Positions 247-27,197 of a DNA stretch of 64,000 bases are shown here, piece by piece. Under the pieces are notes generated by a model, which was given only the letters and a program-made list of their open reading frames with translations, had not been told where the DNA came from and did no database searches. A program made the translations under genes and the position numbers. The first letter of the stretch is position 1. Each line of letters opens with the position of its first letter. Origin of the DNA: Bacteroidota bacterium (GTDB lineage Bacteria; Bacteroidota; Bacteroidia; Cytophagales; Cyclobacteriaceae); NCBI GenBank assembly GCA_018266395.1, contig JAFEAM010000015.1, forward strand, positions 34,306-98,305. The letters are read 5' to 3'.

Positions 247-2259
247 TTACTTCGCTCCGGTTCCTTCATCCTCGATCTTGCCCGTCGAGAACTTGAGCGG
301 AACCTTGCTTCCAGGAGCAGATACCCTTATGTATCCCTGCATCTCCTGGTGCAGTGCCGAGCAGAAGTCTGTGCAATAGAAAGGAAATACTCCTACTGCG
401 TCCGGCTTCCACTTCAGCGTCTGTGTTTCACCCGGCATGATCAGGATCTCTGCATTGAGAGCGCCTTTCACGGCCAATCCATGCGGTATATCCCAGTCCT
501 GCTCGAGGTTCGTGACATGGAAATAAACCTCGTCTCCCAGCATCACACCTTCGATATTGTCAGGAGTAAAGTGGGAACGGATGGCGGTCAGATACACGTG
601 AATCTGATTTCCTTTCCTTTCCACTTTGGCTTCCTTCTCGCCCTTGGCTACGTATGGGTTGGCATTATCTTCAATCCTGTAAAACTTGACTGAATTAGGT
701 GTGATCAGGCTGGCAGGGATCGCCTCGCCGTAGTGCGGTTCACCGGTAGTCGGGAAGTCGAGCAGGAGCTGCATTTTGTCACCAGAGATGTCATACAACT
801 GGGCTGACTGGGTCAGCTCAGGGCCTGTCGGCAGGTAGCGGTCTTTGGTGATCTTGTTGTAGGCGATCACATATTTACCCCAGGGTTTTGCTGTGGGGCC
901 ACCAGGCACGCAAAGGTGACCGATGGAATAGTAAGTGGGTACACGGTCCAGTACCTGGAGCGTTTTGACATTCCACTTAACGATTTCTGAAGAAACAAAG
1001 AAGGAGGTGTAGGCGTTGCCATTTGCATCGAATTCAGTATGGAGCGGTCCAAGGCCTGGCTTCTTCACTTCACCGTGGAGAGCAGACTCATACTTGATAA
1101 CCGGGATACCTGCAAATTCGCCTTCAAAATCCTTGTTGGCAATGGCCTGCTGAATTTTGGTGAACGAGAACACGGGGACCAGAGCAGCCAGTTTGCCGCT
1201 GCCTACAATATATTCTCCTGAAGGGTCAGTGTCACATCCATGAGGCGATTTAGGGCACGGGATGAAGTAGACCATGTCCTTCAATTCAGACGGATCCAGG
1301 GTCATCACTTCGTCCATGATGGTTGAAGTGGCCATGTGTGTCTTCTCATCGAAAGTATTATGCGCATATTTTGCTTTCACTTTCTTGCCTTTGCCTTGTG
1401 CAAGATATTCCTCGGCTTTCTTCCAGTTCACCGCCATGATGTAGTCCTTGTCCTTTTGTGAGGCATTCACCTCAAGGAGCGTGTAGGCCTGTTCGGTGTT
1501 ATAGCAGCTGAAGAAGAACCAGCCGTGTGACGGACCCTTTCCTGCACGGGACAGGTCAAAGTTGAATCCGGGAGTAAGAAGCTGGAAGGCGATCTTCATG
1601 TTTCCGCTCTCCTTGTCTATGCTGATAAAGCTTACCGTGCCCCTGAAGTTCTTTTTGTATGAACTGATAGGAACATCCGTCTTGTCGCCCATCGGTGTGC
1701 TAAAGCGCGTACCTGCTACGATGTATTCGGAATTCTCTGTAATGAAAGGTGAAGAGTGGTTGCCGCTACTGTTGGGCAATTCCAGAATCTCCTGGGTGGT
1801 GAAGGTTTTGAGGCTTACACGGGCCACGCGCGGCGTATTGTTGGCATTGCCAAATGCCCAACGGCCGTCATGCACACCGTTTGTCACAGACAATGCGATA
1901 TGGTGAAGGTCATCCCATGGCACGAAACCATGTGATGTGTTCAGCATCGGCTTGGTTTCCTCGCTGAAGCCCCAGCCATTTTCAGGAAATTGGGAGAAGA
2001 CCGGAAGAATGCGGAACAAACGGCCTGAGGGCAAACCATAAATTCCCATCTGGCCATTGAAGCCACCTGACACGATGTTATAGAATTCATCATACTTGCC
2101 CGGTGCCACGTACACTTTGGCAGCGGCATTGCCGGTCACGGCCTCCTGTGGGCCTTTGGGTTTACAACTGTCGACCACGACAATTGTGAATGCCACGCTG
2201 ATCACAGCGAGGACTTTCATAAACATTTTCATATATGGGCGGTTGTTAAAAGGAATCAT
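247..2259 (-). CDS. nosZ: Nitrous oxide reductase, clade II (Sec-exported)
   Basis: Reduces N2O to N2 in the periplasm, the last step of denitrification, using a CuZ catalytic cluster and a CuA electron-entry site. The N-terminal seven-bladed propeller shows the His pair HH at 119-120 and further His-containing blade motifs (PHGCDTD near 340, LHTEF near 410, PHYGEA near 500). The C-terminal cupredoxin carries the CuA ligands C629-x3-C633-x3-H637-x2-M640 and an upstream PHG histidine. There is no twin-arginine leader; the N-terminus has a Sec-type hydrophobic core ending in VDSC, which reads as a lipoprotein box, so the enzyme may be membrane-tethered. The chosen ATG overlaps the stop of the upstream cytochrome gene (ATGA), which suggests translational coupling; an in-frame ATG at 2232 (MKMFMK) is an equally plausible start. 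Its length of about 660 residues is normal for clade II. Confidence 0.97.
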   Translation of the reverse strand: MIPFNNRPYMKMFMKVLAVISVAFTIVVVDSCKPKGPQEAVTGNAAAKVYVAPGKYDEFYNIVSGGFNGQMGIYGLPSGRLFRILPVFSQFPENGWGFSEETKPMLNTSHGFVPWDDLHHIALSVTNGVHDGRWAFGNANNTPRVARVSLKTFTTQEILELPNSSGNHSSPFITENSEYIVAGTRFSTPMGDKTDVPISSYKKNFRGTVSFISIDKESGNMKIAFQLLTPGFNFDLSRAGKGPSHGWFFFSCYNTEQAYTLLEVNASQKDKDYIMAVNWKKAEEYLAQGKGKKVKAKYAHNTFDEKTHMATSTIMDEVMTLDPSELKDMVYFIPCPKSPHGCDTDPSGEYIVGSGKLAALVPVFSFTKIQQAIANKDFEGEFAGIPVIKYESALHGEVKKPGLGPLHTEFDANGNAYTSFFVSSEIVKWNVKTLQVLDRVPTYYSIGHLCVPGGPTAKPWGKYVIAYNKITKDRYLPTGPELTQSAQLYDISGDKMQLLLDFPTTGEPHYGEAIPASLITPNSVKFYRIEDNANPYVAKGEKEAKVERKGNQIHVYLTAIRSHFTPDNIEGVMLGDEVYFHVTNLEQDWDIPHGLAVKGALNAEILIMPGETQTLKWKPDAVGVFPFYCTDFCSALHQEMQGYIRVSAPGSKVPLKFSTGKIEDEGTGAK

Positions 2260-2726
2260 TTTTGTCCATCATTATGCCTCATGAACTCAAGGATATCCCT
2301 GGCATCGCCGATGGAGATGTTTTGATTGGGCATCCTTGTAAGACACAACTCGAGTAGTTTTTGGGCTTCGGTATCCTTGTCCAACATGACATCGGTATTG
2401 GTTACCATGTTCATGATCCACTCCGGTTTCCTTCTCTCAGTTACGCCGTGCCAGCCCGGGCCCACTACACGCTGATCATCCAGTTTATGGCAGGCCTGGC
2501 ATTTCATCTCGTATATGGCCAAACCCCTGTCCACACGTTCTTTTTCCAGCGGAGATTTCAACGTAACATTCTTCACTGCCCCTATTCCTTTGGTGGGATC
2601 TGTCAACACGGCTTCAGGAGCTGAGGTGCTCGGCTGTGAGGGCAGATCTTCCACATTCTTTGGTTTTTCCGGCGCACAGCCGATCAAAAGACCAAACATT
2701 ACCGCTGTTATAAGTTCTTTTTTCAT
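2256..2726 (-). CDS. Lipoprotein cytochrome c, probable electron donor to NosZ
   Basis: A 156-residue monohaem c-type cytochrome. The leader MKKELITAVMFGLLIGC ends in a lipobox (Cys17), followed by a Pro/Ser-rich linker. The haem motif CQACH is at residues 76-80, and the Met in LTRMPNQN near the C-terminus is the likely distal ligand. It is translated just before nosZ with a 4-base overlap, so the two are made together; the obvious inference is that it passes electrons to the CuA site. An in-frame ATG 14 codons upstream exists, but the lipoprotein leader favours this start. An Fnr-like operator lies 86 bases upstream. Confidence 0.9.
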   Translation of the reverse strand: MKKELITAVMFGLLIGCAPEKPKNVEDLPSQPSTSAPEAVLTDPTKGIGAVKNVTLKSPLEKERVDRGLAIYEMKCQACHKLDDQRVVGPGWHGVTERRKPEWIMNMVTNTDVMLDKDTEAQKLLELCLTRMPNQNISIGDARDILEFMRHNDGQK

Positions 2727-2806
2727 AGTTTTTTTGATTGGTTTGGTTGCATGAAGGTAGAGGCACAAAAGATAGTCACTTTATGCTTAAACGCATATTA
2801 GAAAAC

Positions 2807-2818
2807 TGATTTAAGTCA
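2807..2818 (-). promoter_or_regulatory. Fnr-like operator of the cytochrome c-nosZ operon
   Basis: On the minus strand this reads TGACTTAAATCA, a TGAY-N4-RTCA palindrome. It overlaps the stop codon of the Crp/Fnr regulator gene, and its centre is 86 bases before the cytochrome c ATG. A -7-like element (TATCTTTTG) follows at 2774-2766. The same 12-mer occurs at 17655-17666 before the respiratory module. The binding protein is inferred to be the adjacent regulator. Confidence 0.6.
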
Positions 2819-3431
2819 TAACGGGGGCAGAAACGGCTATCTTATGGTTGATCAGGCTTAGCCTCCCTTCTTCGGACATTCGCTTCACCGTTCTAATGAC
2901 CGTTTCGACCCGCAAACCCGTCATATCTGCAATCTCCTGGCGGGTCAGTGGCACTATATAATGGAGTCCATCTTCTGCCTTCGGAAGGGGCTTTCGTTTG
3001 GAATAATAAAGAATCACATTCCAGATGACTTCCTCCGGTTCAAGAAATGATATGGAGGTCAGCAACATGGTTTTATATCTCAATCGCTCGCACAAGACTT
3101 TGTCAAACTCCAGGTGGGCATTGAAATTGTTTCGAAGCAACTCCATGAAGTGATCTTTAGGTAGCCTCCACACCGTTGAGGGTTCCATGGCAATTGCGGA
3201 AGACGGATAAGGGAAGGAATTCAATAGCGGTGGTTCTCCAAAACTTTCGCCTGACCTGAAAAGACCCTGAATCAATTCCTTACCGGAATTAGTGCGGGTG
3301 ATCATCTTTACCGCGCCCTGCATGACCTGAAAATAATTGACGGCCTTTTCTCCTTCATAGAACAAGAATTGGCCTTTTCGGAGCTTCAACTTTGTGGCGC
3401 CATATTGGGTCAGGAGTTGTTCGGTCAGCAC
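2811..3431 (-). CDS. Crp/Fnr-family transcriptional regulator beside nos
   Basis: A 206-residue regulator with an N-terminal cyclic-nucleotide-binding-like beta-roll (about 15-120), a dimerisation helix (about 120-150) and a C-terminal winged helix-turn-helix (LTRQEIADMTG followed by LRVETVIRTVKRM). The recognition helix has the E-T-V-I-R pattern, close to Fnr/Dnr proteins, which read TGA half-sites. It has only one cysteine (in VLCERL) and none at the N-terminus, so it cannot bind an FNR-type [4Fe-4S] cluster. A haem-based NO-sensing Dnr/Nnr-like role is possible but is not shown by the sequence. Two TGAC-N4-GTCA palindromes sit before its start and suggest autoregulation. It precedes the cytochrome c-nosZ operon on the same strand. 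Confidence 0.88.
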   Translation of the reverse strand: MLTEQLLTQYGATKLKLRKGQFLFYEGEKAVNYFQVMQGAVKMITRTNSGKELIQGLFRSGESFGEPPLLNSFPYPSSAIAMEPSTVWRLPKDHFMELLRNNFNAHLEFDKVLCERLRYKTMLLTSISFLEPEEVIWNVILYYSKRKPLPKAEDGLHYIVPLTRQEIADMTGLRVETVIRTVKRMSEEGRLSLINHKIAVSAPVMT

Positions 3432-3497
3432 AGTCTGATCCGCAATAAATTGGGCGGACAGGCAGTAAAAATATGGGAGGTCTATGGCGGTACTCCG

Positions 3498-3509
3498 TGA
3501 CCGCGGTCA
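3498..3509 (-). promoter_or_regulatory. Proximal Fnr-like operator of the crp/fnr gene
   Basis: TGACCGCGGTCA is a perfect 12-base palindrome of the TGAC-N4-GTCA type, centred 72 bases before the regulator start. It lies 22 bp (two helical turns) from the next site at 3520-3531, so dimers bound at both would face the same side of the helix. Confidence 0.5.
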
Positions 3510-3516
3510 GCTTATT

Positions 3517-3534
3517 TGATGACGTTTGTCATCA
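3517..3534 (-). promoter_or_regulatory. Distal Fnr-like operator of the crp/fnr gene
   Basis: TGATGACGTTTGTCATCA has arms TGATGAC and GTCATCA that are exact reverse complements around GTTT. The core TGACGTTTGTCA lies 94 bases upstream of the regulator ATG. A nearly identical 18-mer, TGATGACATTTGTCATAA, lies before ppdK at 24361-24378, which supports shared recognition. Confidence 0.6.
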
Positions 3535-17654: not shown

Positions 17655-17666
17655 TGACTTAAATCA
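17655..17666 (+). promoter_or_regulatory. Fnr-like operator before the eight-gene respiratory module
   Basis: TGACTTAAATCA, extended to GTGA-N6-TCAC at 17654-17667. It is identical to the operator of the cytochrome c-nosZ operon (2807-2818, minus strand). It lies about 140 bases before the first codon of the module, in an otherwise empty 270-base gap between divergent genes. Confidence 0.6.
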
Positions 17667-17801
17667 CTGAACACCGCGATGCACGTCATTACTAAACTTG
17701 ATAATAGTGCGAAGATTCGATGATTAAATGCATTGCAAAACAACAACGCTCGGCTACGAGAATCACTTACTAAACTAATGGAATAACCTATTAAGACTAT
17801 T

Positions 17802-19179
17802 TTGTCCAGAACATTCCTGAAGCTCCCCATCCTCATCTCCATTTTCGGTTATGTGGGATATATCGTGAGCTGCACACAGAAGGATCAGATTATTCTTACC
17901 AATCCATCTGAAAACACCACTGAACTGCTGTCGGTGAAAGCAGGCTCAGCTCCCACCATTGACGGCACCATAGAGTCCATGTGGGAGAACGCACCGAAAC
18001 TGAAGATTACGCCCACAGTACCGGATCCTGGAAACGGTTTATTCACCGGATACATCGGTGAACAATACCCAGTTACACTGAGGTCCATGTATGACGGTAC
18101 GAACATCTACTTCCTCGCTGAGATTACGGATGACTCCCAGACCATTCTGCCCTCACCTTGGTACTTCAATCCGGCCGCCAACACGACAGGCAAAACCGGT
18201 TGGGCCAAGGAGCCTGGCAGCAGGAGTTATGATGCCAATGGGAATTTATCCCGGATAGCTTTTGGCGAAGACCGGCTTGCAATGCTCTGGAATGTGAATG
18301 CTTCTACCCCTAAGTTCATCACACAGACCTGTTACGCCAGCTGCCATGTCTTTGGACCATATATGGATTACTCCAAAAAATCCGGCAGTCTATACCTCCA
18401 ACGCCGGAAACGGAAATCACTACACCAATGGTCAAGCTGAGAAAATAGATATGTGGTGGGGTCGACTTGGGTATATCAGCAGAGATGCTACTCTTAACTT
18501 CATAGACGATAATTACCAGGACTGGGCCGGTGGTCCTGCCATCACCAACCTGACCGGTGGCAATGCGAATGGTCGTCATGTCGATGGCATTGCACCTGAT
18601 GGAACATTTTCAAGCACCTGGCCAGGCAGGCCCAACTATACGGTAACGCCACCCAAACAGGGAGAATTCAGCAATTCACAGAGTCTCAAACTGGATGGAA
18701 CCGGAGCCTCTGTTTCAGTTCCCCTTTGGGTTCTGGTCACCGGCACGAGCACAGGTTTCATTCTCCCGGCAGACACCCTGAGTGGAAATGCCAAAAAGGT
18801 GATCGGTATCAGTTCTGCAGGAGTCTTGACACTAAGCGATAATTCGAAAATTGATCCGACCGTCGGCACCGACTATCAAAGAACGGGTGATCCCATCACA
18901 GGCCCTACCGCCGTCAAGGCCATCGCAAACTACATAGGAATGCCATTGCTCAACGGAAGATCAGATATCAAAGCAGCAGCCGTTTACACGGGCACAGGCT
19001 GGGTTGTTGAGTATACGAGAGCCATGAAGACCGCCGATGCACAGAAGCAGGATATTGACTTCACGGTTCAGAATTCAGATGGCACGCTCCAGGACCAGCC
19101 GTTTGGACTGGCTTTCTTCAACAACTCCAATAATCAGCACGGTATTTACCCTGGCATGGTGCTGAAATTCCAGAAGTAG
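17802..19179 (+). pseudogene. EB_dh-type haem-binding lipoprotein, frameshifted
   Basis: Two overlapping frames make one protein of about 458 residues once a single A is removed from the A6 run at 18375-18380. The first half has a lipoprotein leader (lipobox Cys24), GSAPTIDGTIESMWENAP and NIYFLAEITDDSQT, typical of ethylbenzene-dehydrogenase-related haem domains, and ends at QTCYASCH (C177, C181, H182: CX3CH spacing). The second frame continues with KIDMWWGRLGYI and ends with QPFGLAFFNNSNNQHGIY, the conserved closing block of the family. The start is a TTG, since the only upstream ATG in frame is followed by a stop. The defect may be a homopolymer sequencing error or a real lesion. The family carries electrons as a periplasmic haem subunit. 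Confidence 0.8.
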
Positions 19180-19206
19180 TCTTACATGCCAACTCATTCA
19201 AAGATC

Positions 19207-19605
19207 ATGATCAGAAAACTAAACTGGAAAATACTCGCCTTCCTGGCACTGCTGTTGGTGATGCAGGGTTGCTATGATGCAACCACGGTAAAGATCGACA
19301 ACAGCCAGACCATAACCAGAACCGTGAGTTTCAAAGCCGATGTAATTCCACTCTTCAACAAGAGTTGCAATACAGCCGGCTGTCATGCCACCGGAGGCAG
19401 GAAGCCCAACTTATCAGAAGCCAATGCCTATAATGCTCTTATCACAGGCAATTATGTAAATGTGGGCGCTCCTGAGCAAAGTGTCATTTACCTGTACCTC
19501 ACCGGCAAGAAGACTCCCCAGATGCCGTTGGGATCCGCAGCCAATCCGAATAACATCAACCAGTTCGTACTTGCCTGGATTATCCAAGGGGCAAAGAACA
19601 ACTAA
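19207..19605 (+). CDS. Lipoprotein c-type cytochrome with CX4CH haem motif
   Basis: A 132-residue protein with a lipoprotein leader (LALLLVMQGC, Cys22) and a single haem-binding site SCNTAGCH (C54, C59, H60), which has four residues between the cysteines instead of two. The late MPLGSAAN supplies a possible Met ligand. The arrangement F(K)ADVIPLFNKSC...GCH is seen in several Bacteroidota outer-membrane cytochrome-like proteins. It follows the haem lipoprotein by 27 bases and precedes the DUF5777 barrel by 10. A possible job is electron transfer at the outer face of the periplasm; the partner is unknown. Confidence 0.78.
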   Translation: MIRKLNWKILAFLALLLVMQGCYDATTVKIDNSQTITRTVSFKADVIPLFNKSCNTAGCHATGGRKPNLSEANAYNALITGNYVNVGAPEQSVIYLYLTGKKTPQMPLGSAANPNNINQFVLAWIIQGAKNN

Positions 19606-19615
19606 CCGACACACC

Positions 19616-20524
19616 ATGAACAAGATCAAAGAATTATATAAGGCCCTTTCAGGAATCATCATCCTGTCGCTCCTGATAGCCTTGCCTGCCCTGGCACAGG
19701 AACCTTCAGATTCAGTGCAGCAGGCGTTGACCGCTGGCAGAAAGCCGGTCAAAAATACTTTTGACGGCAACTTCATTATTGACAATCAAACAGTGATGGT
19801 AAATCCCAAGGGGACTTTTGAGTTCGATTTCCAGCACCGCTTTGGCCTGGTCACCCATGGCATTCAGGACATGTTTGGCCTTTATGAAGGTGCCACTATC
19901 CGCCTGGGAGTATCTTATGTCCCCATCAAGAATCTTCAGGTAGGCATTGGATCCTACAGTGACCCCATGCAGGTCGATGGCAATGTCAAATACTCCATCT
20001 GGCAGCAGACAAGGGATAACAAGATGCCGGTGAGTGTAACAGCATTCGGCAACATGATTGTAGATACCCGGTCTGCGGACAATTTCGTCAACAACACGGA
20101 TCGCCTTTCTTATTTCGGCCAATTGATTATCGCCAGGAAATTCACTGACAAGTTCTCCGCACAGGTGGCGCCGAGCGTTTCCCACTTTAACAACATTCAG
20201 GGTTATCTTGATGAACAGGGCAACGTTCAACCGTCGATGCACAACACGCATATCGCAGTTGCATTCTCAGGCCGATACAAGATTACCGAGGGAACCACTA
20301 TACTGGTGAATTACGACCAGCCCATCACGCAGCACCAGACAAACAACCCACACCCCAATGTCAGTTTTGGCTGCGAGTGGGTTACCAGCGGTCACCAGTT
20401 CCAGGTGTTCTTCAGTAACTACAGTTATATCGCTCAGCAGCGCAATAACTTTTTCAACACCAATGACTATACGAAAGGGCAATACCTGATTGGTTTCAAC
20501 ATCTCAAGATTGTGGAACTTCTAA
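19616..20524 (+). CDS. DUF5777-type outer-membrane beta-barrel protein
   Basis: A 302-residue protein with a signal peptide (about 1-25, cleaved at ALAQ) and alternating beta-strand patterns to the C-terminal aromatic (FNISRLWNF), as in outer-membrane barrels. Motifs such as GTFEFDFQHRFG, YEGATIRLGVSY and VSFGCEWVTSGHQFQVF fit the DUF5777 family, which is often found next to YceI-like or cytochrome genes. Its function is not established. It sits in the module between a cytochrome and the Tat proteins, so it may help place or feed the exported redox proteins. Confidence 0.8.
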   Translation: MNKIKELYKALSGIIILSLLIALPALAQEPSDSVQQALTAGRKPVKNTFDGNFIIDNQTVMVNPKGTFEFDFQHRFGLVTHGIQDMFGLYEGATIRLGVSYVPIKNLQVGIGSYSDPMQVDGNVKYSIWQQTRDNKMPVSVTAFGNMIVDTRSADNFVNNTDRLSYFGQLIIARKFTDKFSAQVAPSVSHFNNIQGYLDEQGNVQPSMHNTHIAVAFSGRYKITEGTTILVNYDQPITQHQTNNPHPNVSFGCEWVTSGHQFQVFFSNYSYIAQQRNNFFNTNDYTKGQYLIGFNISRLWNF

Positions 20525-20534
20525 TAATGGCGTG

Positions 20535-20750
20535 ATGGCAAACAGAAGGAAATTTCTACTGGCAGGCTTGGGAGCGGCTTCCCTGTGGGCTCTCACCAAA
20601 TCAATTTTTGTCCGCAAGCAACCGGGTGCAAAGGCGCGGTTCCTGACCCATGATGGAAAGCTGGTGGAGGTGGACATCCAAAAGTTGCCCCTAACAGGAA
20701 GGGTAGCAGGTAAGGAGGAAATGCAAAAGTGGGTGCAACGTAGAAAGTGA
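20535..20750 (+). CDS. Small Tat-exported protein resembling the leader region of the next gene
   Basis: A 71-residue protein starting MANRRKFLLAGLGAAS, a twin-arginine signal with a hydrophobic region to about 25. The rest (ARFLTHDGKLVEVDIQKLP to KEEMQKW) is similar in order to residues 49-86 of the following 4Fe-4S protein (VQLLSVTGEVIEVDKAFL to NEEARRG), so it looks like a stand-alone copy of that N-terminal segment. It has no cysteines and thus no cluster. Its stop overlaps the next start by 4 bases. It may be a chaperone-like or structural partner of the Fe-S subunit; the function is unknown. Confidence 0.75.
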   Translation: MANRRKFLLAGLGAASLWALTKSIFVRKQPGAKARFLTHDGKLVEVDIQKLPLTGRVAGKEEMQKWVQRRK

Positions 20751-21682
20751 TGAGCGCAATGACTGACTCAGACAAAACAGAGAAGCGGGTTCCCAGAAGA
20801 AATTTTCTGGAGGCTGCGCTTCTGACCGGAATAACCGCCGCAGCCGATCCTTTTACTGCCTTCGGTTCAAGTGGTGTTGCTCCCAGTGGAGAAAAGGTCC
20901 AGCTGCTCTCCGTAACAGGTGAAGTCATCGAAGTAGACAAAGCTTTCCTGAAAGAGGTGCCGGAATCTGTTGTAACCAACGAGGAGGCAAGGCGCGGCAT
21001 GCCGGGGAAAAAGTTTGTGATGGTGATTGATCTCTCACACTGTCACAATCTCAAAAAGTGCCAGGCCGCCTGTAACAAGGCACACTTTGTACATGAGCAC
21101 CAGAACTGGATCAAAGTATATCCAATGCAGGAAGGTGAACACGAGGCTCCTTACTGGCAGCCCACCACCTGCATGCATTGCGATGAACCTCCATGCGTGA
21201 AGGTCTGTCCTGTAGACGCGACATTCAAGCGGCAGGATGGAATTGTGCTGATTGACAATGAACGATGCATCGGCTGCAGATTCTGCATGGCGGCTTGCCC
21301 CTATTCGACCCGCGTCTTTAACTGGGAGAAACCCGAGGCGCGTCCGGAGTTGGAAAATGTTCCATACTCACCTGAAACAAGTTGCCCGCCCAAGATGGGA
21401 ACCGTTTCCAAGTGCGACTTCTGCCCTGACATGACCCGGAAAGGAGAACTGCCCCATTGCGTTTCCGCCTGCCCTAATGGTGTCTTCTATTTTGGAGATA
21501 TGAACGAAGATGTGGTAACCAATGGATCGGAGACCGTCAGGTTCAGTGATTTAATCAAAGATCGTTCAGGCTACAGGCTGATGGAGGATCTGGGCACCAA
21601 ACCCAGCGTCTATTACCTGCCACCCGTCGAACGGCTGTTCCCCTTCGAAGACGGACTGAAAGACAAAGCTTCCAAACCCTGA
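20747..21682 (+). CDS. Tat-exported 4Fe-4S ferredoxin subunit (NrfC/PsrB-like)
   Basis: A 311-residue periplasmic Fe-S subunit with Tat signal PRRNFLEAALL (R17-R18). Three cysteine groups are canonical (CMHCDEPPCVKVCP, CIGCRFCMAACP, and CDFC with HCVSACP). The first group is degenerate: C99-HNL-KKC105-QAAC109 has Leu102 where the family has its second Cys, so one cluster may be 3Fe-4S or lost. Such subunits link an NrfD-type quinol-oxidising anchor to a catalytic partner. The next gene is that anchor, but no molybdopterin or haem catalytic subunit is present in the operon. An alternative start is the Met at residue 5. Confidence 0.9.
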   Translation: MMSAMTDSDKTEKRVPRRNFLEAALLTGITAAADPFTAFGSSGVAPSGEKVQLLSVTGEVIEVDKAFLKEVPESVVTNEEARRGMPGKKFVMVIDLSHCHNLKKCQAACNKAHFVHEHQNWIKVYPMQEGEHEAPYWQPTTCMHCDEPPCVKVCPVDATFKRQDGIVLIDNERCIGCRFCMAACPYSTRVFNWEKPEARPELENVPYSPETSCPPKMGTVSKCDFCPDMTRKGELPHCVSACPNGVFYFGDMNEDVVTNGSETVRFSDLIKDRSGYRLMEDLGTKPSVYYLPPVERLFPFEDGLKDKASKP

Positions 21683-21685
21683 GCC

Positions 21686-23002
21686 ATGGAGACCACTGTG
21701 CACGATAAAGTTGTGAAAGATCTCATGCCTGCCAGGTTTGGAAAGGCTGGCATCATATGGACTTCTACTTTGGTAATCATTTGTATTGTCGGTCTGGTTG
21801 CCTATATCAAGCAGTTGAGGGAAGGATTGAGTATTACGGCGATGCGGGATTACGCCTCATAGGGCATCTACATTTCCAACTTTGTTTTCTTCGTTGCCAT
21901 CAGCCTTGTAGGTTCCTTGATCACGGCCATATTCAGGCTTACCAATGTGCAGTGGCGAACACCCCTCACCAGAATTTCCGAGATCATTGCTGTAGCAGCC
22001 ATCATTTTTGCAGCGATAGGCATTATCATCGACATGGGACGGCCAGACAGGCTGTGGCACTTGTTTGTCTACTCCAGACTGCAGTCGCCCATTATCTGGG
22101 ACGTTATTGTAATCACGACCTACCTGGTGCTGAGTGTGCTCTTCCTGTATTTCCCGTTGCTGCCCGATCTGCCAATGCTGATCAAAAGCAAGGAGGCCAA
22201 CCCAAAAGACTTTACAGGGAAATTGTACAGATTTCTTGGGTCCTTCTGGAGGGGAAAAGATGATCAAAGGAAATACAGTGAGACCGCCATCCGCATCATA
22301 TCTGTCATGATCATTCCGGTGGCGCTTTCCATTCACACTGTGACTTCCTGGTTATTTGCCACCACCTATCGCCCGGGCTGGGACAGCACCAACTTCGGCG
22401 CCTATTTTGTTTCAGGAGCTTTCCTGGTGGGTGCTGGCGGGGTGGTCATTGCCATGTATGTCTTCCGCCGCGCCTATCATCTCGAGGAGTATATCACCGA
22501 CAAGCATTTCGATAATATGGGGAAAGTTCTTGTCATGCTAGCCCTGCTTTACCTGTACTTCAATCTCAACGAATACCTTGTGCCAGCCTTTAAAATGAAA
22601 AAAGCGGAAGAGCATCACCTCAAGAGTCTCTTTACAGGTGAATATGCCATGCTCTTCTGGTCTGTAATTGTATTGGGGATGATCGTGCCGGTTATTGTCC
22701 TGATGTTCAAGAAAGGAAGGCGACCGCTGCCCATGTTTATCATGGGAATCCTGGTGGTGGTCGGCGCCTGGTACAAAAGGTTTCTCATCGTAACCCCAAC
22801 TTTGCTGAGCCCCTTCCTCCCCATGTATGATGTACCTGAGTCCTACACAAACTATCATCCTACACTGGCAGAATGGGCCATCACCTTCAGCACACTTTCA
22901 GGTGCGTTGCTGGTGATTACTTTCTTCGTGCGGTATTTCCCCATCATCCCCATCCATGAGACCATCGAAGAAAAGGAGGCCATCTTAAATCCAAAGTCAT
23001 GA
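21686..23002 (+). pseudogene. nrfD: NrfD-family quinol-interacting membrane anchor, interrupted by an amber codon
   Basis: From METTVHDKVV the frame encodes the first NrfD helix (about 22-42) and then reads MRDYAS-TAG-GIYISNFVFF; the stop at 21860-21862 is codon 59. In this family the position is normally Trp (the S-W-G-I pattern), one G-to-A change from TGG. The same frame then stays open for 379 more codons with the remaining helices and the hairpins expected of NrfD (FSTLSGALLVITFF near the end). The full length would be 438 residues. NrfD anchors oxidise menaquinol and pass electrons to the Fe-S subunit. Re-initiation at 21917 would lack the first helices. It is either a true nonsense mutation, a sequencing error or read-through. 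Confidence 0.85.
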
Positions 23003-23859
23003 AGCAAGGTGCCCTCATATTTACATTTCTGATCTGTGTGGTCTCTGCAATCGCACAGGACAAGGCCTCTGTCAGGCTCGGTCTTACGTTCAGGAAGGTC
23101 AACGATGAGCCGGCGGTGCTGCGGTGCGAAGCCAAAACCAAAGCAGGCAAGCGATTCGAACCTGTAGAAAATGCCATAGTAAATATCTATTTCTCTGAAG
23201 AGAACAACAGCAATCTGATTGGGACAACAAAAACCAATGGCAAAGGAATTGCGGATGTAAACGTGCCCGCCTCATTTCTTACACGGATGGACAGCACCGC
23301 ATCCTGGCACTTTGTGGCCACACTCACAGAAGGGGAAACATATAAAGGCGCGTCTGCCGAGGCAGATGTAACAAGAGCCAGATTACAGGTGGACTTCCAG
23401 GAGGCTGACAGTACCCGTACCATTGTTGCCATTCTTTCAGAATGGAAAGACGGCAAGTGGACACCCGTGCCTCAAACAGAGGTGAAGTTGATTGTCAAAA
23501 CCCTCTTCAGTGATCTGCCTGTGGGCGAAGACACCTATACAACAGATGATGAAGGGAAAGCGTCAACCACATTTGATATGAAGCTTCCGGGGGATGCTGA
23601 GGGAAACCTGACCCTGGGTGCCAAACTCGAAGATCATGAAGCCTATGGCACGCTGTTTGCGACCAGTAAAATGAAATGGGGAGTTCCGACGCCACCGGAC
23701 AACAGCTTTTCGCAACGGACGTTGTGGGCTTCCAGGGATAAGACGCCGTGGTGGTTGCTTATCGGACCCAACCTGATTATTCTGGCGGTTTGGGGATCTA
23801 TATTTTATCTTGTATATCTGTTTGTGAAGATCAGAAGAAGCGGGATGCAAAAAACTTAA
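22999..23859 (+). CDS. Ig-like exported membrane protein of the respiratory module
   Basis: A 286-residue protein with a signal peptide (about 1-19, cleaved at AIAQ), two beta-rich Ig/carboxypeptidase-regulatory-like domains (about 22-125 and 128-225; NIYFSEENNSNLIGTTKTNG and TDDEGKASTTFDMKLPG are the turn-strand elements) and one transmembrane helix near the C-terminus (WWLLIGPNLIILAVWGSIF), followed by a short basic tail. The bulk is therefore periplasmic. No enzymatic motif or metal site is visible. It overlaps the NrfD gene by 4 bases and is followed by the cytochrome c gene, so it is probably a scaffold of the same complex. I do not recognise a characterised homologue. Confidence 0.75.
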   Translation: MKQGALIFTFLICVVSAIAQDKASVRLGLTFRKVNDEPAVLRCEAKTKAGKRFEPVENAIVNIYFSEENNSNLIGTTKTNGKGIADVNVPASFLTRMDSTASWHFVATLTEGETYKGASAEADVTRARLQVDFQEADSTRTIVAILSEWKDGKWTPVPQTEVKLIVKTLFSDLPVGEDTYTTDDEGKASTTFDMKLPGDAEGNLTLGAKLEDHEAYGTLFATSKMKWGVPTPPDNSFSQRTLWASRDKTPWWLLIGPNLIILAVWGSIFYLVYLFVKIRRSGMQKT

Positions 23860-23888
23860 CTCAGACTAAACCTATTATTGAATCTGTT

Positions 23889-24293
23889 ATGAAAAGATCA
23901 CTTTCATTCCTTTTGGTACTCAGCCTGGTGCTGAGCATGTCATCCTTTCGGATCTTCCAGGCAAAGCCATGGAATGCGCCTGAAGCATTTGTCAAGAAAA
24001 GTAACCCGGTCAAGTCCGATGCTGAGTCGCTCAAAACCGGAAAAGAAGTATGGTCCAAACATTGTCAGTCGTGCCACGGAAAAGCCGGGGCCGGAGATGG
24101 CACCAAAGCCGCCACGCTCGAAACCGAAATGAAGGATTTCTCAACTGCTGACGTCCAGAGCCAGTCTGACGGATCCATGTTCTACAAGATATCTGAGGGC
24201 CGGGACGAGATGCCGACTTTCAAGAAGAAGATCCAGGATGAAACAGAGATATGGAGCGTCATTAATTTCATCCGGACGCTTAAAGCCAAATGA
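23889..24293 (+). CDS. Class I cytochrome c, soluble or membrane-anchored
   Basis: A 134-residue monohaem cytochrome with an uncleaved or cleaved N-terminal hydrophobic segment (about 5-20). CQSCHG (C59, C62, H63) follows a typical KTGKEVWSKHC helix; DEMPTFKKK carries the distal Met and WSVINFIRTLK is the C-terminal helix. It is the last gene of the module, 29 bases after the Ig-like protein and before a terminator. It is the natural soluble acceptor for electrons from NrfD and the Fe-S subunit, and could carry them to NosZ or an oxidase. Confidence 0.9.
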   Translation: MKRSLSFLLVLSLVLSMSSFRIFQAKPWNAPEAFVKKSNPVKSDAESLKTGKEVWSKHCQSCHGKAGAGDGTKAATLETEMKDFSTADVQSQSDGSMFYKISEGRDEMPTFKKKIQDETEIWSVINFIRTLKAK

Positions 24294-24360: not shown

Positions 24361-24378
24361 TGATGACATTTGTCATAA
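24361..24378 (+). promoter_or_regulatory. Fnr-like operator of ppdK
   Basis: TGATGACATTTGTCATAA has arms TGATGAC and GTCATAA around ATTT; the core TGACATTTGTCA is at 24364-24375. It differs at only two positions from the site before the Crp/Fnr gene (3517-3534), and its centre is 80 bases before the ppdK ATG. Confidence 0.6.
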
Positions 24379-24449: not shown

Positions 24450-27197
24450 ATGAAAAAGAGCGCTAAATCACCAAGGAAAATTTCGAAGTGGGTTTTCCCT
24501 TTCGGGGGAAAAGACACTGCAGGCAATGGTGGCATGAAGGAGTTGTTGGGTGGCAAGGGGGCCAACCTGGCCGAGATGGCTAAACTGGGAATGCCCGTGC
24601 CTCCGGGTTTCACCATCACAACGGAAGCCTGCAACTACTATTACGATAACAAGCAGAAGATGCCTGACCAGCTGGTCGAACAGGCGGAGAGGGCACTGGC
24701 CAGCGTGGAGAAAATCATGAAGTGCGGATTCGGCGACCCTGAGAATCCGCTTTTGCTTTCTATACGGTCAGGTGCACGCAAATCCATGCCGGGCATGATG
24801 GAAACGGTTCTTAATGTGGGCCTCACCGACGTAACCCGTGAAGGGCTCATCCGCAAGACCGACAACCCGCATTTTGTATATGACAGTCAGCGCCGTCTCA
24901 TCCAAATGTATGCCGACGTAGTCATGGAAAAGGGAACCGGCCGCCAGGTAAACGGCGACGGTATCCGTAAGAAACTGGATGCCGAACTCGAAGCTCTGAA
25001 AAAGAAAAGGGGCGTCGAATTCGACCGTGACCTTTCTGCCGATGACCTGAAGCAGCTTGTGGTGATTTACAAGAAGAAGGTAAAGGAAGAAATGGGCGTC
25101 GAGTTTCCGGAAGATCCAAATGTTCAGCTATGGAATGCCGTCAAAGCAGTATTCGCCAGCTGGAACGGAGACCGCGCCATCGCATATCGCAAAATCGAAG
25201 CTATCCCTCACAACTGGGGCACCGCCGTGAATGTGCAAGCCATGGTATTTGGCAATATGGGCGACACTTCGGCCACCGGTGTAGGCTTCTCGCGCAACCC
25301 GGCAACGGGTGATAAAGGATTCTATGGAGAATGGCTGCCCAATGCACAGGGTGAAGACGTAGTCGCCGGCATCAGGACTCCCAACCCTGTTAACACATTC
25401 AGTCAGAACAACCAGAACGCCAAACTGCAAACCCTTGCCGACGCCATGCCGCATCTCTATAAAGAGCTGACCGGATACGTCAACAAACTGGAGAAACATT
25501 TCCACGACATGCTGGACATCGAGTTCACCATTCAGGAAGACAAACTCTGGATGTTGCAGTGCCGGGTGGGCAAGCGCACAGGGCCTGCAGCCATGAAGAT
25601 GGCGTTGAACATGCTTTCAGAAAAGCTCATCAACAAATTTGAGTCAATCAACAGGGTAAGTCCTGCTCAACTGGAAGAACTGCTTCACCCTATACTGGAT
25701 CCTAAATCCGAAAAGAGTGCCACCATTCTGGGCAAAGGCCTGCCTGCCGGTCCAGGCGGCGCGTGCGGCCAGGCCGTGTTTACCGCATCTGCGGCAGTTG
25801 CGTGGAAGAAGGAGGGCAAGGATGTGATCCTGGTGCGCGAAGAGACAAACCCGGAAGATGTGGAAGGCATGCGTGCCGCGGAAGGAATACTCACGGCCCG
25901 TGGTGGCATGACGAGTCACGCCGCACTGGTGGCCAGGGGATGGGGCAAATGCTGTATTGTGGGCGCCGGCGAGCTGGAGATCCATGCAGACCAGAAAATC
26001 CTCATCGCCAACGGAAAGAAGATATCTGAAGGTGACTGGATCTCATTGAATGGAACACATGGCAATATTTATGAAGGGAAACTCGGCATGATGAAAGCGG
26101 CTGAGGACAACCCTGAATTTGACAAATTCATGAAGCTCTGCGACGGTGTGAGAAGACTGAAGATCCGCACAAATGCAGATACCCCTGAAGATGCAGCCAA
26201 GGCCAGGGCATTTGGTGCGGAAGGCATTGGGCTGTTCCGGACAGAACACATGTTCTACGGCAAAGGATCAGAACAACCGCTCTTCCTGTTGCGCAAAATG
26301 ATCATGGCAAAGACTACTGAAGACCGCATTGCAGCGCTCAATGAGCTCTATCCTTTTGTCAAGGCTGACGTAAAAGCCACCCTTGCTGCGATGAGCGGTT
26401 TGCCGGTTACCATCCGGACCCTTGATCCTCCTCTCCACGAGTTTGTACCCAAAGATCATGAGGACCGCGTGAAGATGGCCGAGAGTCTGAAAATAACCTC
26501 GGCAGCCTTTGACAAGCGTGCTGAAGAATTGGTTGAAAATAACCCGATGATGGGTCACCGCGGTGTTCGGCTCTCCATCACCTATCCAGAGATTACCGAA
26601 ATGCAGTTGAGGGCAATCTTTGAAGCCAGTGTGGAACTTACCCGTGAAGGCAAAAAGCCGATTCCAGAAATCATGTTCCCGCTCGTTGGGCATGAGCGTG
26701 AGCTGAAGCATGAGATGGAAATTGCACACCGGGTTCACGCAGAAGTATGTCAACGTTTGAAAGTGAAAAACATTCCTCATACGCTGGGCACCATGATTGA
26801 AGTTCCACGCGCTTGCCTTACAGCAGACAAGATTGCGCAGGAAGCAGAATTCTTCAGTTTCGGAACAAACGACCTTACACAAATGACTTTTGGGTTCAGC
26901 CGTGATGACATCGGATCCTTTGTTCCCGCATACACTACAAAACGCATTCTGCCGGCCGATCCATTCCAGACGATAGACCAGTCCGGCGTAGGCGTCCTGA
27001 TGGAAATGGCCATTCAGAAGGGTCGCAAAGTGAAGAAGGATCTGAAGATTGGTATATGCGGCGAGCATGGTGGAGAGCCCAGGTCGGTAATATTCTGTCA
27101 TAACGCCGGCCTGAACTATGTGAGCTGTTCACCTTTCCGTGTGCCGGTGGCGCGACTGGCCGCAGCGCAGGCTGTCATCCAGGAAAAGAAGAAATAG
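24450..27197 (+). CDS. ppdK: Pyruvate phosphate dikinase
   Basis: A 915-residue cytoplasmic enzyme that interconverts pyruvate, ATP and phosphate with PEP, AMP and pyrophosphate. The N-terminal ATP-grasp domain begins at FGGKDTAGNGGMKELLGGKG; the central phosphohistidine domain carries the catalytic His in GGMTSHAALVARGWGKCC; the C-terminal TIM barrel ends with GICGEHGGEP. The length is typical. The start (MKKSAKS) is preferred to an in-frame ATG 29 codons upstream, which would lie inside the operator. It stands alone between two terminators. With an Fnr-like operator, it may serve PPi-saving glycolysis or anaplerosis under low oxygen. Confidence 0.97.
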   Translation: MKKSAKSPRKISKWVFPFGGKDTAGNGGMKELLGGKGANLAEMAKLGMPVPPGFTITTEACNYYYDNKQKMPDQLVEQAERALASVEKIMKCGFGDPENPLLLSIRSGARKSMPGMMETVLNVGLTDVTREGLIRKTDNPHFVYDSQRRLIQMYADVVMEKGTGRQVNGDGIRKKLDAELEALKKKRGVEFDRDLSADDLKQLVVIYKKKVKEEMGVEFPEDPNVQLWNAVKAVFASWNGDRAIAYRKIEAIPHNWGTAVNVQAMVFGNMGDTSATGVGFSRNPATGDKGFYGEWLPNAQGEDVVAGIRTPNPVNTFSQNNQNAKLQTLADAMPHLYKELTGYVNKLEKHFHDMLDIEFTIQEDKLWMLQCRVGKRTGPAAMKMALNMLSEKLINKFESINRVSPAQLEELLHPILDPKSEKSATILGKGLPAGPGGACGQAVFTASAAVAWKKEGKDVILVREETNPEDVEGMRAAEGILTARGGMTSHAALVARGWGKCCIVGAGELEIHADQKILIANGKKISEGDWISLNGTHGNIYEGKLGMMKAAEDNPEFDKFMKLCDGVRRLKIRTNADTPEDAAKARAFGAEGIGLFRTEHMFYGKGSEQPLFLLRKMIMAKTTEDRIAALNELYPFVKADVKATLAAMSGLPVTIRTLDPPLHEFVPKDHEDRVKMAESLKITSAAFDKRAEELVENNPMMGHRGVRLSITYPEITEMQLRAIFEASVELTREGKKPIPEIMFPLVGHERELKHEMEIAHRVHAEVCQRLKVKNIPHTLGTMIEVPRACLTADKIAQEAEFFSFGTNDLTQMTFGFSRDDIGSFVPAYTTKRILPADPFQTIDQSGVGVLMEMAIQKGRKVKKDLKIGICGEHGGEPRSVIFCHNAGLNYVSCSPFRVPVARLAAAQAVIQEKKK

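Follow-up and report, generated by a model that had tools for sequence, protein, structure and literature searches.

A Crp/Fnr regulator adjoining clade II nosZ in a family of Bacteroidota is a probable nosZ activator and appears to share a paired operator code with other Crp/Fnr proteins

The Crp/Fnr regulator described here, REG, adjoins the nitrous oxide reductase gene nosZ in a 64,000-nucleotide stretch of a Bacteroidota genome (the window), and it probably turns on this nitrous-oxide-destroying gene. Several Crp/Fnr proteins appear to share one DNA code, the palindrome TGAY-N4-RTCA, often in two copies 22 or 23 bp apart; the protein superfamily and the half site are known, and the paired promoter grammar appears to be new. 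The reading that we favor, with moderate confidence, is that REG acts on cytochrome c-nosZ as a class II activator at this palindrome, within a shared code and a cascade resembling FixLJ-FixK. It is built on the operators, their pairing, their distance to the -7 box, their conservation and the linkage of the genes, all of which are read from sequence (Table 1).

Table 1. Genes and candidate regulatory elements in the window
Feature	Position	Strand	Sequence or evidence
nosZ, Sec-dependent (clade II) nitrous oxide reductase	247..2259	-	TIGR04246, 925 bits (cut-off 625)
Cytochrome c, directly before nosZ	2256..2726	-	Pfam Cytochrom_C
Possible -7 box of cytochrome c-nosZ, 24 bp after the proximal partner	2752..2759	-	TACCTTCA, 4/6 to TAnnTTTG
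Putative degenerate proximal partner, exactly 23 bp downstream of the nosZ operator	2784..2795	-	TGCGTTTAAGCA, 5/8 positions
Operator before cytochrome c-nosZ, distal of the pair, containing the REG stop codon	2807..2818	-	TGACTTAAATCA, position conserved in relatives
REG, Crp/Fnr regulator, 206 aa	2811..3431	-	Pfam cNMP_binding 3.5e-21, HTH_Crp_2 2.4e-9
Candidate -7 box of REG, 24 bp after the proximal operator	3466..3473	-	TATTTTTA, 5/6
Proximal operator before REG	3498..3509	-	TGACCGCGGTCA
Distal operator before REG, 22 bp from the proximal	3520..3531	-	TGACAAACGTCA
Operator before the respiratory module	17655..17666	+	TGACTTAAATCA
Partner, exactly 22 bp after the module operator	17677..17688	+	CGATGCACGTCA, 7/8
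Respiratory module: EB_dh heme domain (two frames), small cytochrome-like protein, DUF5777 barrel, DsrO-like Fe-S protein, NrfD/DsrP-like membrane subunit, c-type cytochrome	17802..24293	+	
Operator before ppdK	24364..24375	+	TGACATTTGTCA
ppdK, pyruvate phosphate dikinase	24450..27197	+	TIGR01828, 1237 bits (cut-off 843)

REG belongs to the Crp/Fnr superfamily, scoring above the cut-off for both PF00027 (75.4 bits) and PF13545 (37.4 bits), and the features tested place it outside FNR, CRP and HcpR2. It holds a single cysteine, which excludes the four-cysteine FNR cluster, as the initial annotation had argued, and it reaches only 43.2 of 228 bits against the Fnr model. In CRP, Arg82 binds the cAMP phosphate; residues 76-78 of REG, where we take this arginine to align, hold no Arg in any of 45 orthologues (47 aligned sequences, less two with stops), and the CRP model yields 54.7 of 266 bits. 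FixK needs no ligand and DNR binds heme/NO, and by analogy REG may follow either pattern. The NCBIfam FixK model gives 37.9 of 300 bits, far below its cut-off, and REG resembles the DNR chain 3dkw (1.5e-20 with a profile) more weakly than it does CRP chains; His106 (conserved in 41/45 orthologues) and Met43 (42/45) are candidate heme ligands at most. Its recognition helix, RVETVIR, is identical at six of seven positions in all 45 aligned orthologues, with V178 kept in 44. HcpR2 proteins, those of Bacteroides included, have a change at residue 181 and in most members the motif GTAACnnnnGTTAC (PMC1274295). Unlike these, REG retains the glutamate (Glu176, the equivalent of 181, invariant in 45/45) and a TGA half site, and its motif differs from GTAACnnnnGTTAC.

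The initial annotation described five TGAY-N4-RTCA palindromes, before cytochrome c-nosZ, REG (two), the respiratory module and ppdK. All five exist at the positions in Table 1; one 12-mer, TGACTTAAATCA, is common to the first (minus strand) and the fourth (plus strand), and the two REG sites form a pair with an exact 22-bp spacing. Their centers lie, as claimed, 72-95 bp before the start codons except at the module: 86.5 bp before the cytochrome c ATG (2726), 72.5 and 94.5 bp before the REG GTG (3431), 80.5 bp before the ppdK ATG and 141.5 bp before the module TTG (17802), the starts being gene calls or our own choice; the cytochrome distance is counted from the ATG, where an earlier nosZ table used a long-ORF TTG. 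The window holds 11 matches to the motif, against 5.76 (sd 2.22) in dinucleotide shuffles, 3 of 100 of which reach 11; the initial annotation had put chance at about four matches in 64 kb. Five of the 11 are at upstream gaps and the other six (16772, 18800, 39171, 49321, 56499 and 59217) inside called genes; the claim that the five occupy short upstream gaps holds for position, except that the 2807 site is partly genic. The count by itself is weak evidence, and the position is stronger.

A reading of the window sites as chance palindromes with no common regulator could draw on this modest excess and on 771 kb of other contigs, where N4 hardly stands out from other spacers (11 intergenic sites vs 4-10). 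It is countered by the 22/23-bp pairing, the -7 box distance and the conservation in relatives detailed below, and we give it almost no weight. Upstream of nosZ in particular, a site is seen in 24 of 27 regions, but in a mean of 0.4 of 27 after shuffling (about 0.01-0.03 per locus); at nosZ and REG, chance is very unlikely as an explanation.

The assignment of nosZ to REG is upheld by linkage, co-occurrence and a conserved site. Among 196 genomes of the family, 46 have REG, 111 have nosZ and 40 have both, with nosZ present in 40/46 genomes with REG vs 71/150 without it (Fisher 1e-6); in 26 of the 40, the two genes are no more than about 12 kb apart on the same contig. Cytochrome c-nosZ has a strict site in front of it in 34/38 genomes with REG and 31/67 without. 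When the genomes are further divided by the presence of response-regulator-Crp fusions, a second kind of Crp/Fnr protein described below, the counts are 26/30 with both regulators, 8/8 with REG only, 19/28 with a fusion only and 12/39 with neither, a fusion being scored as absent when one search, scoring up to 10 candidates per genome, did not find it, so that some may be missed. These counts rest on 105 loci: 109 of the 111 nosZ genomes (G168 and G139 left out) less G157, G056 and G117, with no cytochrome match, and G179, which is cut short; an earlier table on 52 nosZ loci agrees in direction. Presence of the nosZ site thus goes with both regulators, with REG in genomes lacking an identified fusion (8/8 vs 12/39, p=4e-4) and with the fusion in genomes without REG (19/28 vs 12/39, p=0.003); in genomes with a fusion the effect of REG is not significant (26/30 vs 19/28, p=0.12), and all these Fisher values treat related genomes as independent and so overstate independence. 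Because 12 of the 39 nosZ genomes with neither regulator keep a site, further Crp/Fnr proteins probably read it there.

Beyond the family, we took 11 of 57 REG matches, from Bacteroidota at 35-49 % identity, Saprospiraceae and Chitinophagaceae included; the 46 left out include three weak Bacteroidota matches. REG lies near the cytochrome gene in 9 of these 11 loci, and in all nine a strict site is found between the two genes; nosZ is in the stretch fetched in eight of the nine, and in seven a TAnnTTTG element (5/6 or better) starts 23-24 bp after the strict site. One of the remaining two loci has a site only before REG, and the other has none.

In the window itself, the only proximal partner of the nosZ operator is degenerate, and the -7 box there is weak. 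The partner at 2784-2795 is suggested by relatives that have better partners at the same place. A 5/6 match to TAnnTTTG, TATCTTTT, is present at 2767-2774 (-), at another distance from the operator. The degenerate proximal sites of G164, G184 and the window take the form TGCG-N4-NNCA inside TATGCG...CATA, possibly an altered half site.

Autoregulation of REG, also claimed initially, is borne out in part: a strict site precedes the gene in 18 of 34 REG loci (1/5 where no fusion was found) and is absent from the remainder. Paired operators before REG are spaced by 22 bp in four loci and by 23 bp in two.

The sites often occur in pairs. The 112 positions around 56 intergenic sites give a second site (7/8 or better) 19 times at 22 bp and 10 times at 23 bp, each pair made of two strict sites being counted twice; other offsets from 12 to 45 have 0-2 each, and 116 genic sites show 0-2 at every offset. 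Part of the regions used, namely contig C55 and seven 20-kb stretches, had been selected for paired matches; C55 alone contributes 11 counts at 22 bp and 8 at 23 bp of 54 positions. The unselected contigs give three counts, every one of them at 22 bp and from the window's contig (REG and the module); among the contigs listed, pairs were found only on C55 and the window's contig. An independent test comes from relatives: in 60 REG/nosZ loci, fetched before the pairs were known, offset 23 has 26 counts, offset 22 has 9 and others have 0-2, and 29 ppdK loci give 8 counts, all of them at offset 22. Offsets of 44 and 45, which higher-order arrays would produce, are not enriched around the intergenic sites in the same count with its genic control. 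Pairs are no proof of fusion regulators, as they occur at nosZ where no fusion was found (3/8) and at ppdK in genomes with neither regulator (2/12).

The sites also keep a fixed distance to a promoter element. Of 57 promoters of this genome, 16 have TAnnTTTG (5/6 or better) beginning 23 bp after the site and 19 have it at 23-24 bp; a second peak at 45 bp (8/57) is the distance from the distal site, and other offsets have 0-3. Among 29 nosZ promoters from genomes with REG, 17 show the element at these same distances, 23 or 24 bp. In Flavobacterium psychrophilum it spans -12 to -5 (PMC9723704); because it starts 23-24 bp after the site, the operator would be centered at about -41.5 or -42.5, the predicted position of a class II activator. 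This geometry is not confined to genomes with REG or a fusion, since a search for operator plus -7 box gave matches in 187 of 196 family genomes (10 in this genome, against 0 for the control). Were REG a repressor of nosZ and of itself, the palindromes would be repression operators, and some sites do lie near start codons, for instance 38.5 bp before the C55 kinase; yet the operator is commonly 23-24 bp upstream of the -7 box, in place of the -33 element, as befits an activator, and we judge repression improbable.

REG is one of four HTH_Crp_2 proteins in the genome (4.43 Mb, 56 contigs), the others being encoded on C55 (two) and C31 (one). Both C55 proteins are response-regulator-Crp fusions (Response_reg, cNMP_binding, HTH_Crp_2), and one of their genes overlaps the end of a PAS histidine kinase gene (fusions at C55:162568-167386, L244:2568-7386). 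The glutamate and arginine of the recognition helix go with a TGA core, and since they are retained in all four proteins, these may recognize similar sites. PMC1274295 relates half-site bases to residues 180 and 181 of that helix. Beyond the C31 gene, TGACTAATGTCA occurs at L295:1492-1503, between the gene end and the genes that follow, which by eye encode small membrane and rhodanese-like proteins.

On C55, TGAY-Nk-RTCA has 29 intergenic sites at k=4, against 0-5 for every other k from 0 to 12, a figure that is not that of a random contig, C55 having been picked for its clustered paired matches. The weak enrichment in the 771 kb of other contigs comes close to the outcome that the initial annotation named as refuting its claim, a motif no more frequent upstream of genes than elsewhere in the genome. 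These spacer controls on fetched stretches were used in place of a whole-genome count, which gave 558 sites, vs 134 for a backward-pattern control of different composition. The C55 sites lie 30-130 bp before a start codon in 26 of 29 cases, and 24 of the 29 are within C55:153-203 kb, an island with a fused ccoNO gene, a ccoG-like gene, a copper-type ATPase and an acetyl-CoA hydrolase and, by our reading of the sequences, universal stress proteins, an Hsp20-like protein and cation ATPases. Because the C55 sites cluster at these cbb3-oxidase and stress genes, the window sites probably belong to a larger regulon of low-oxygen or stress type. The island also encodes a multi-PAS histidine kinase (C55:153468-156065, L243:13468-16065), a candidate oxygen or redox sensor that matches the FixL model partially (134.5 of 850 bits) and is preceded by a 23-bp operator pair. 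Fusions were found in 97 of the 196 family genomes, and in the best 30 loci from these 97 genomes, which hold relatives of the second C55 fusion, a strict site lies about 1.3 kb upstream of the fusion gene in 30/30; in C55 this is about where the partner kinase starts.

The extension of the REG code to ppdK is not supported. Of the 31 genomes with a ppdK match, 30 supplied a locus; the site is present in 18 of these 30 loci, and it does not follow REG: it occurs in 6/14 genomes with REG vs 12/16 without (p=0.13), and in 0/5 genomes with REG in which no fusion was found. It looks like the operator of some Crp/Fnr protein, with no evidence for REG, and a chance origin of the single ppdK site of this genome is possible. 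Sole ownership of the code by REG, as first suggested, is therefore rejected, given three more Crp/Fnr proteins, the C55 sites and a ppdK site not associated with it. A rival reading is that the fusions read most or all of the sites, that of nosZ included, and that REG has a minor or different role. The wealth of sites on C55, the home of the fusions, the constant site upstream of the fusion gene, the greater frequency of the ppdK site in genomes without REG and the ability of the fusion to predict the nosZ site in such genomes all speak for it; the nosZ site in every genome with REG and no fusion found, and the adjacency of REG to the nosZ cytochrome in most of the more distant loci examined, speak against. 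We consider this reading rather unlikely, and still favor a direct role for REG at nosZ.

Control of the respiratory module by REG likewise went unsupported, its first gene being present in only 3 of 196 family genomes and the site in 2 of those 3. Upstream of it, near-matches at 17655, 17677, 17699 and 17721 follow each other in exact 22-bp steps (8, 7, 6 and 6 of 8 positions), an array that is possibly due to chance. The EB_dh gene (17802-19179) is split over two overlapping frames in the assembly and the NrfD-type gene (21686-23002) has an in-frame TAG at 21860-21862; the module thus looks damaged in the assembly, by decay or assembly error.

One base pair of spacing may carry information. 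At nosZ, the pair is spaced by 23 bp in all 13 paired genomes with both regulators (six genera) while nine of the 10 paired genomes that have a single regulator show 22 bp (3/3 with REG only, 6/7 with a fusion only), and no pair was found at nosZ in the 39 genomes with neither. The contrast persists at the level of genera (6:0 vs 1:9, Fisher 9e-4) and within the genus g1, where G017, with both regulators, has 23 bp and G183, with a fusion only, 22 bp. Pairs at ppdK (8/8) and at the kinase-fusion operon (14/15 loci) are of 22 bp. Counter to such a rule, G093, with a fusion only, has 23 bp, C55 holds eight intergenic pairs of 22 bp and six of 23 bp, the pairs before REG itself are of both kinds, and 22-bp pairs occur in 4 of 9 distant loci with REG, in genomes that may or may not have a fusion; moreover, the pattern is post hoc, noticed after looking, over 6 and 10 genera. 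We tentatively raise the possibility, more doubtful than otherwise, that these promoters are built for two adjacent dimers, 22 bp marking two of the same kind and 23 bp a mixed REG and fusion pair. If true, paired-operator grammar might separate the regulons of several Crp/Fnr proteins sharing one half site.

Taking these findings together, we infer a cascade in which a low-oxygen or redox signal would be sensed by the kinase and fusion, which would raise REG. Binding of REG to TGAY-N4-RTCA would activate the cytochrome c-nosZ operon and, in many genomes, the REG gene as well. The operator, at the class II place (about -41.5), would replace the -33 element, with the sigma-A -7 box TAnnTTTG 23-24 bp on; upstream, at 22 or 23 bp, there is often another site for a second dimer. 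The response-regulator-Crp fusions, whose partner is a PAS histidine kinase, would read the same code, probably controlling the cbb3 oxidase, universal-stress genes and ppdK, and would act jointly with REG on nosZ.

The FixLJ-FixK2 system has a two-component input, no FNR cysteines, cbb3 targets and a comparable box type. In Bradyrhizobium, FixK2 activates nosRZDYFLX (PMC5582078), and the scheme proposed here likewise puts nos genes under a Crp/Fnr protein within a cascade that responds to low oxygen. It differs in having the Crp domain on the response regulator itself, TAnnTTTG, the Bacteroidota element, as its -7 box, and operators that often come in 22/23-bp pairs. DNR, NnrR and HcpR, as outlined in PMC1274295, are also Crp/Fnr proteins without FNR cysteines over nitrogen-oxide genes; the text of that study has no mention of Cytophaga or Polaribacter. 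Closer in target are the Crp/Fnr proteins of Nitrosophilus labii and the Nss proteins of Wolinella, both Campylobacterota and thus of another phylum. PMC11539149 associates these regulators with clade II nosZ and TTGA-N6-TCAA sites, a spacing identical to the TGA-N6-TCA found here; unlike REG, they adjoin nap and nor clusters, and their nosZ sites were found only with two mismatches allowed, with no fixed pairs in the passages on them. A Crp/Fnr meta-regulon of an anammox reactor covered homologues from Saprospiraceae, Flavobacteriales and Ignavibacteria, and for reactor members of these groups its authors found no evidence of Crp/Fnr control of denitrification (PMC8510549). Among the matches listed in the open-licence literature, no paper was found that describes a 22-23 bp pairing of Crp/Fnr sites or fusions of a response regulator to Crp in Bacteroidota, nor was the assignment of nosZ to REG in this phylum found in print.

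Nitrous oxide has a sink in the bacteria that carry clade II nosZ, and many of these belong to the Bacteroidota. A candidate nosZ activator, its operator and its promoter geometry can now be named for one family and some more distant Bacteroidota, which makes the switching on of nosZ in Bacteroidota directly testable.
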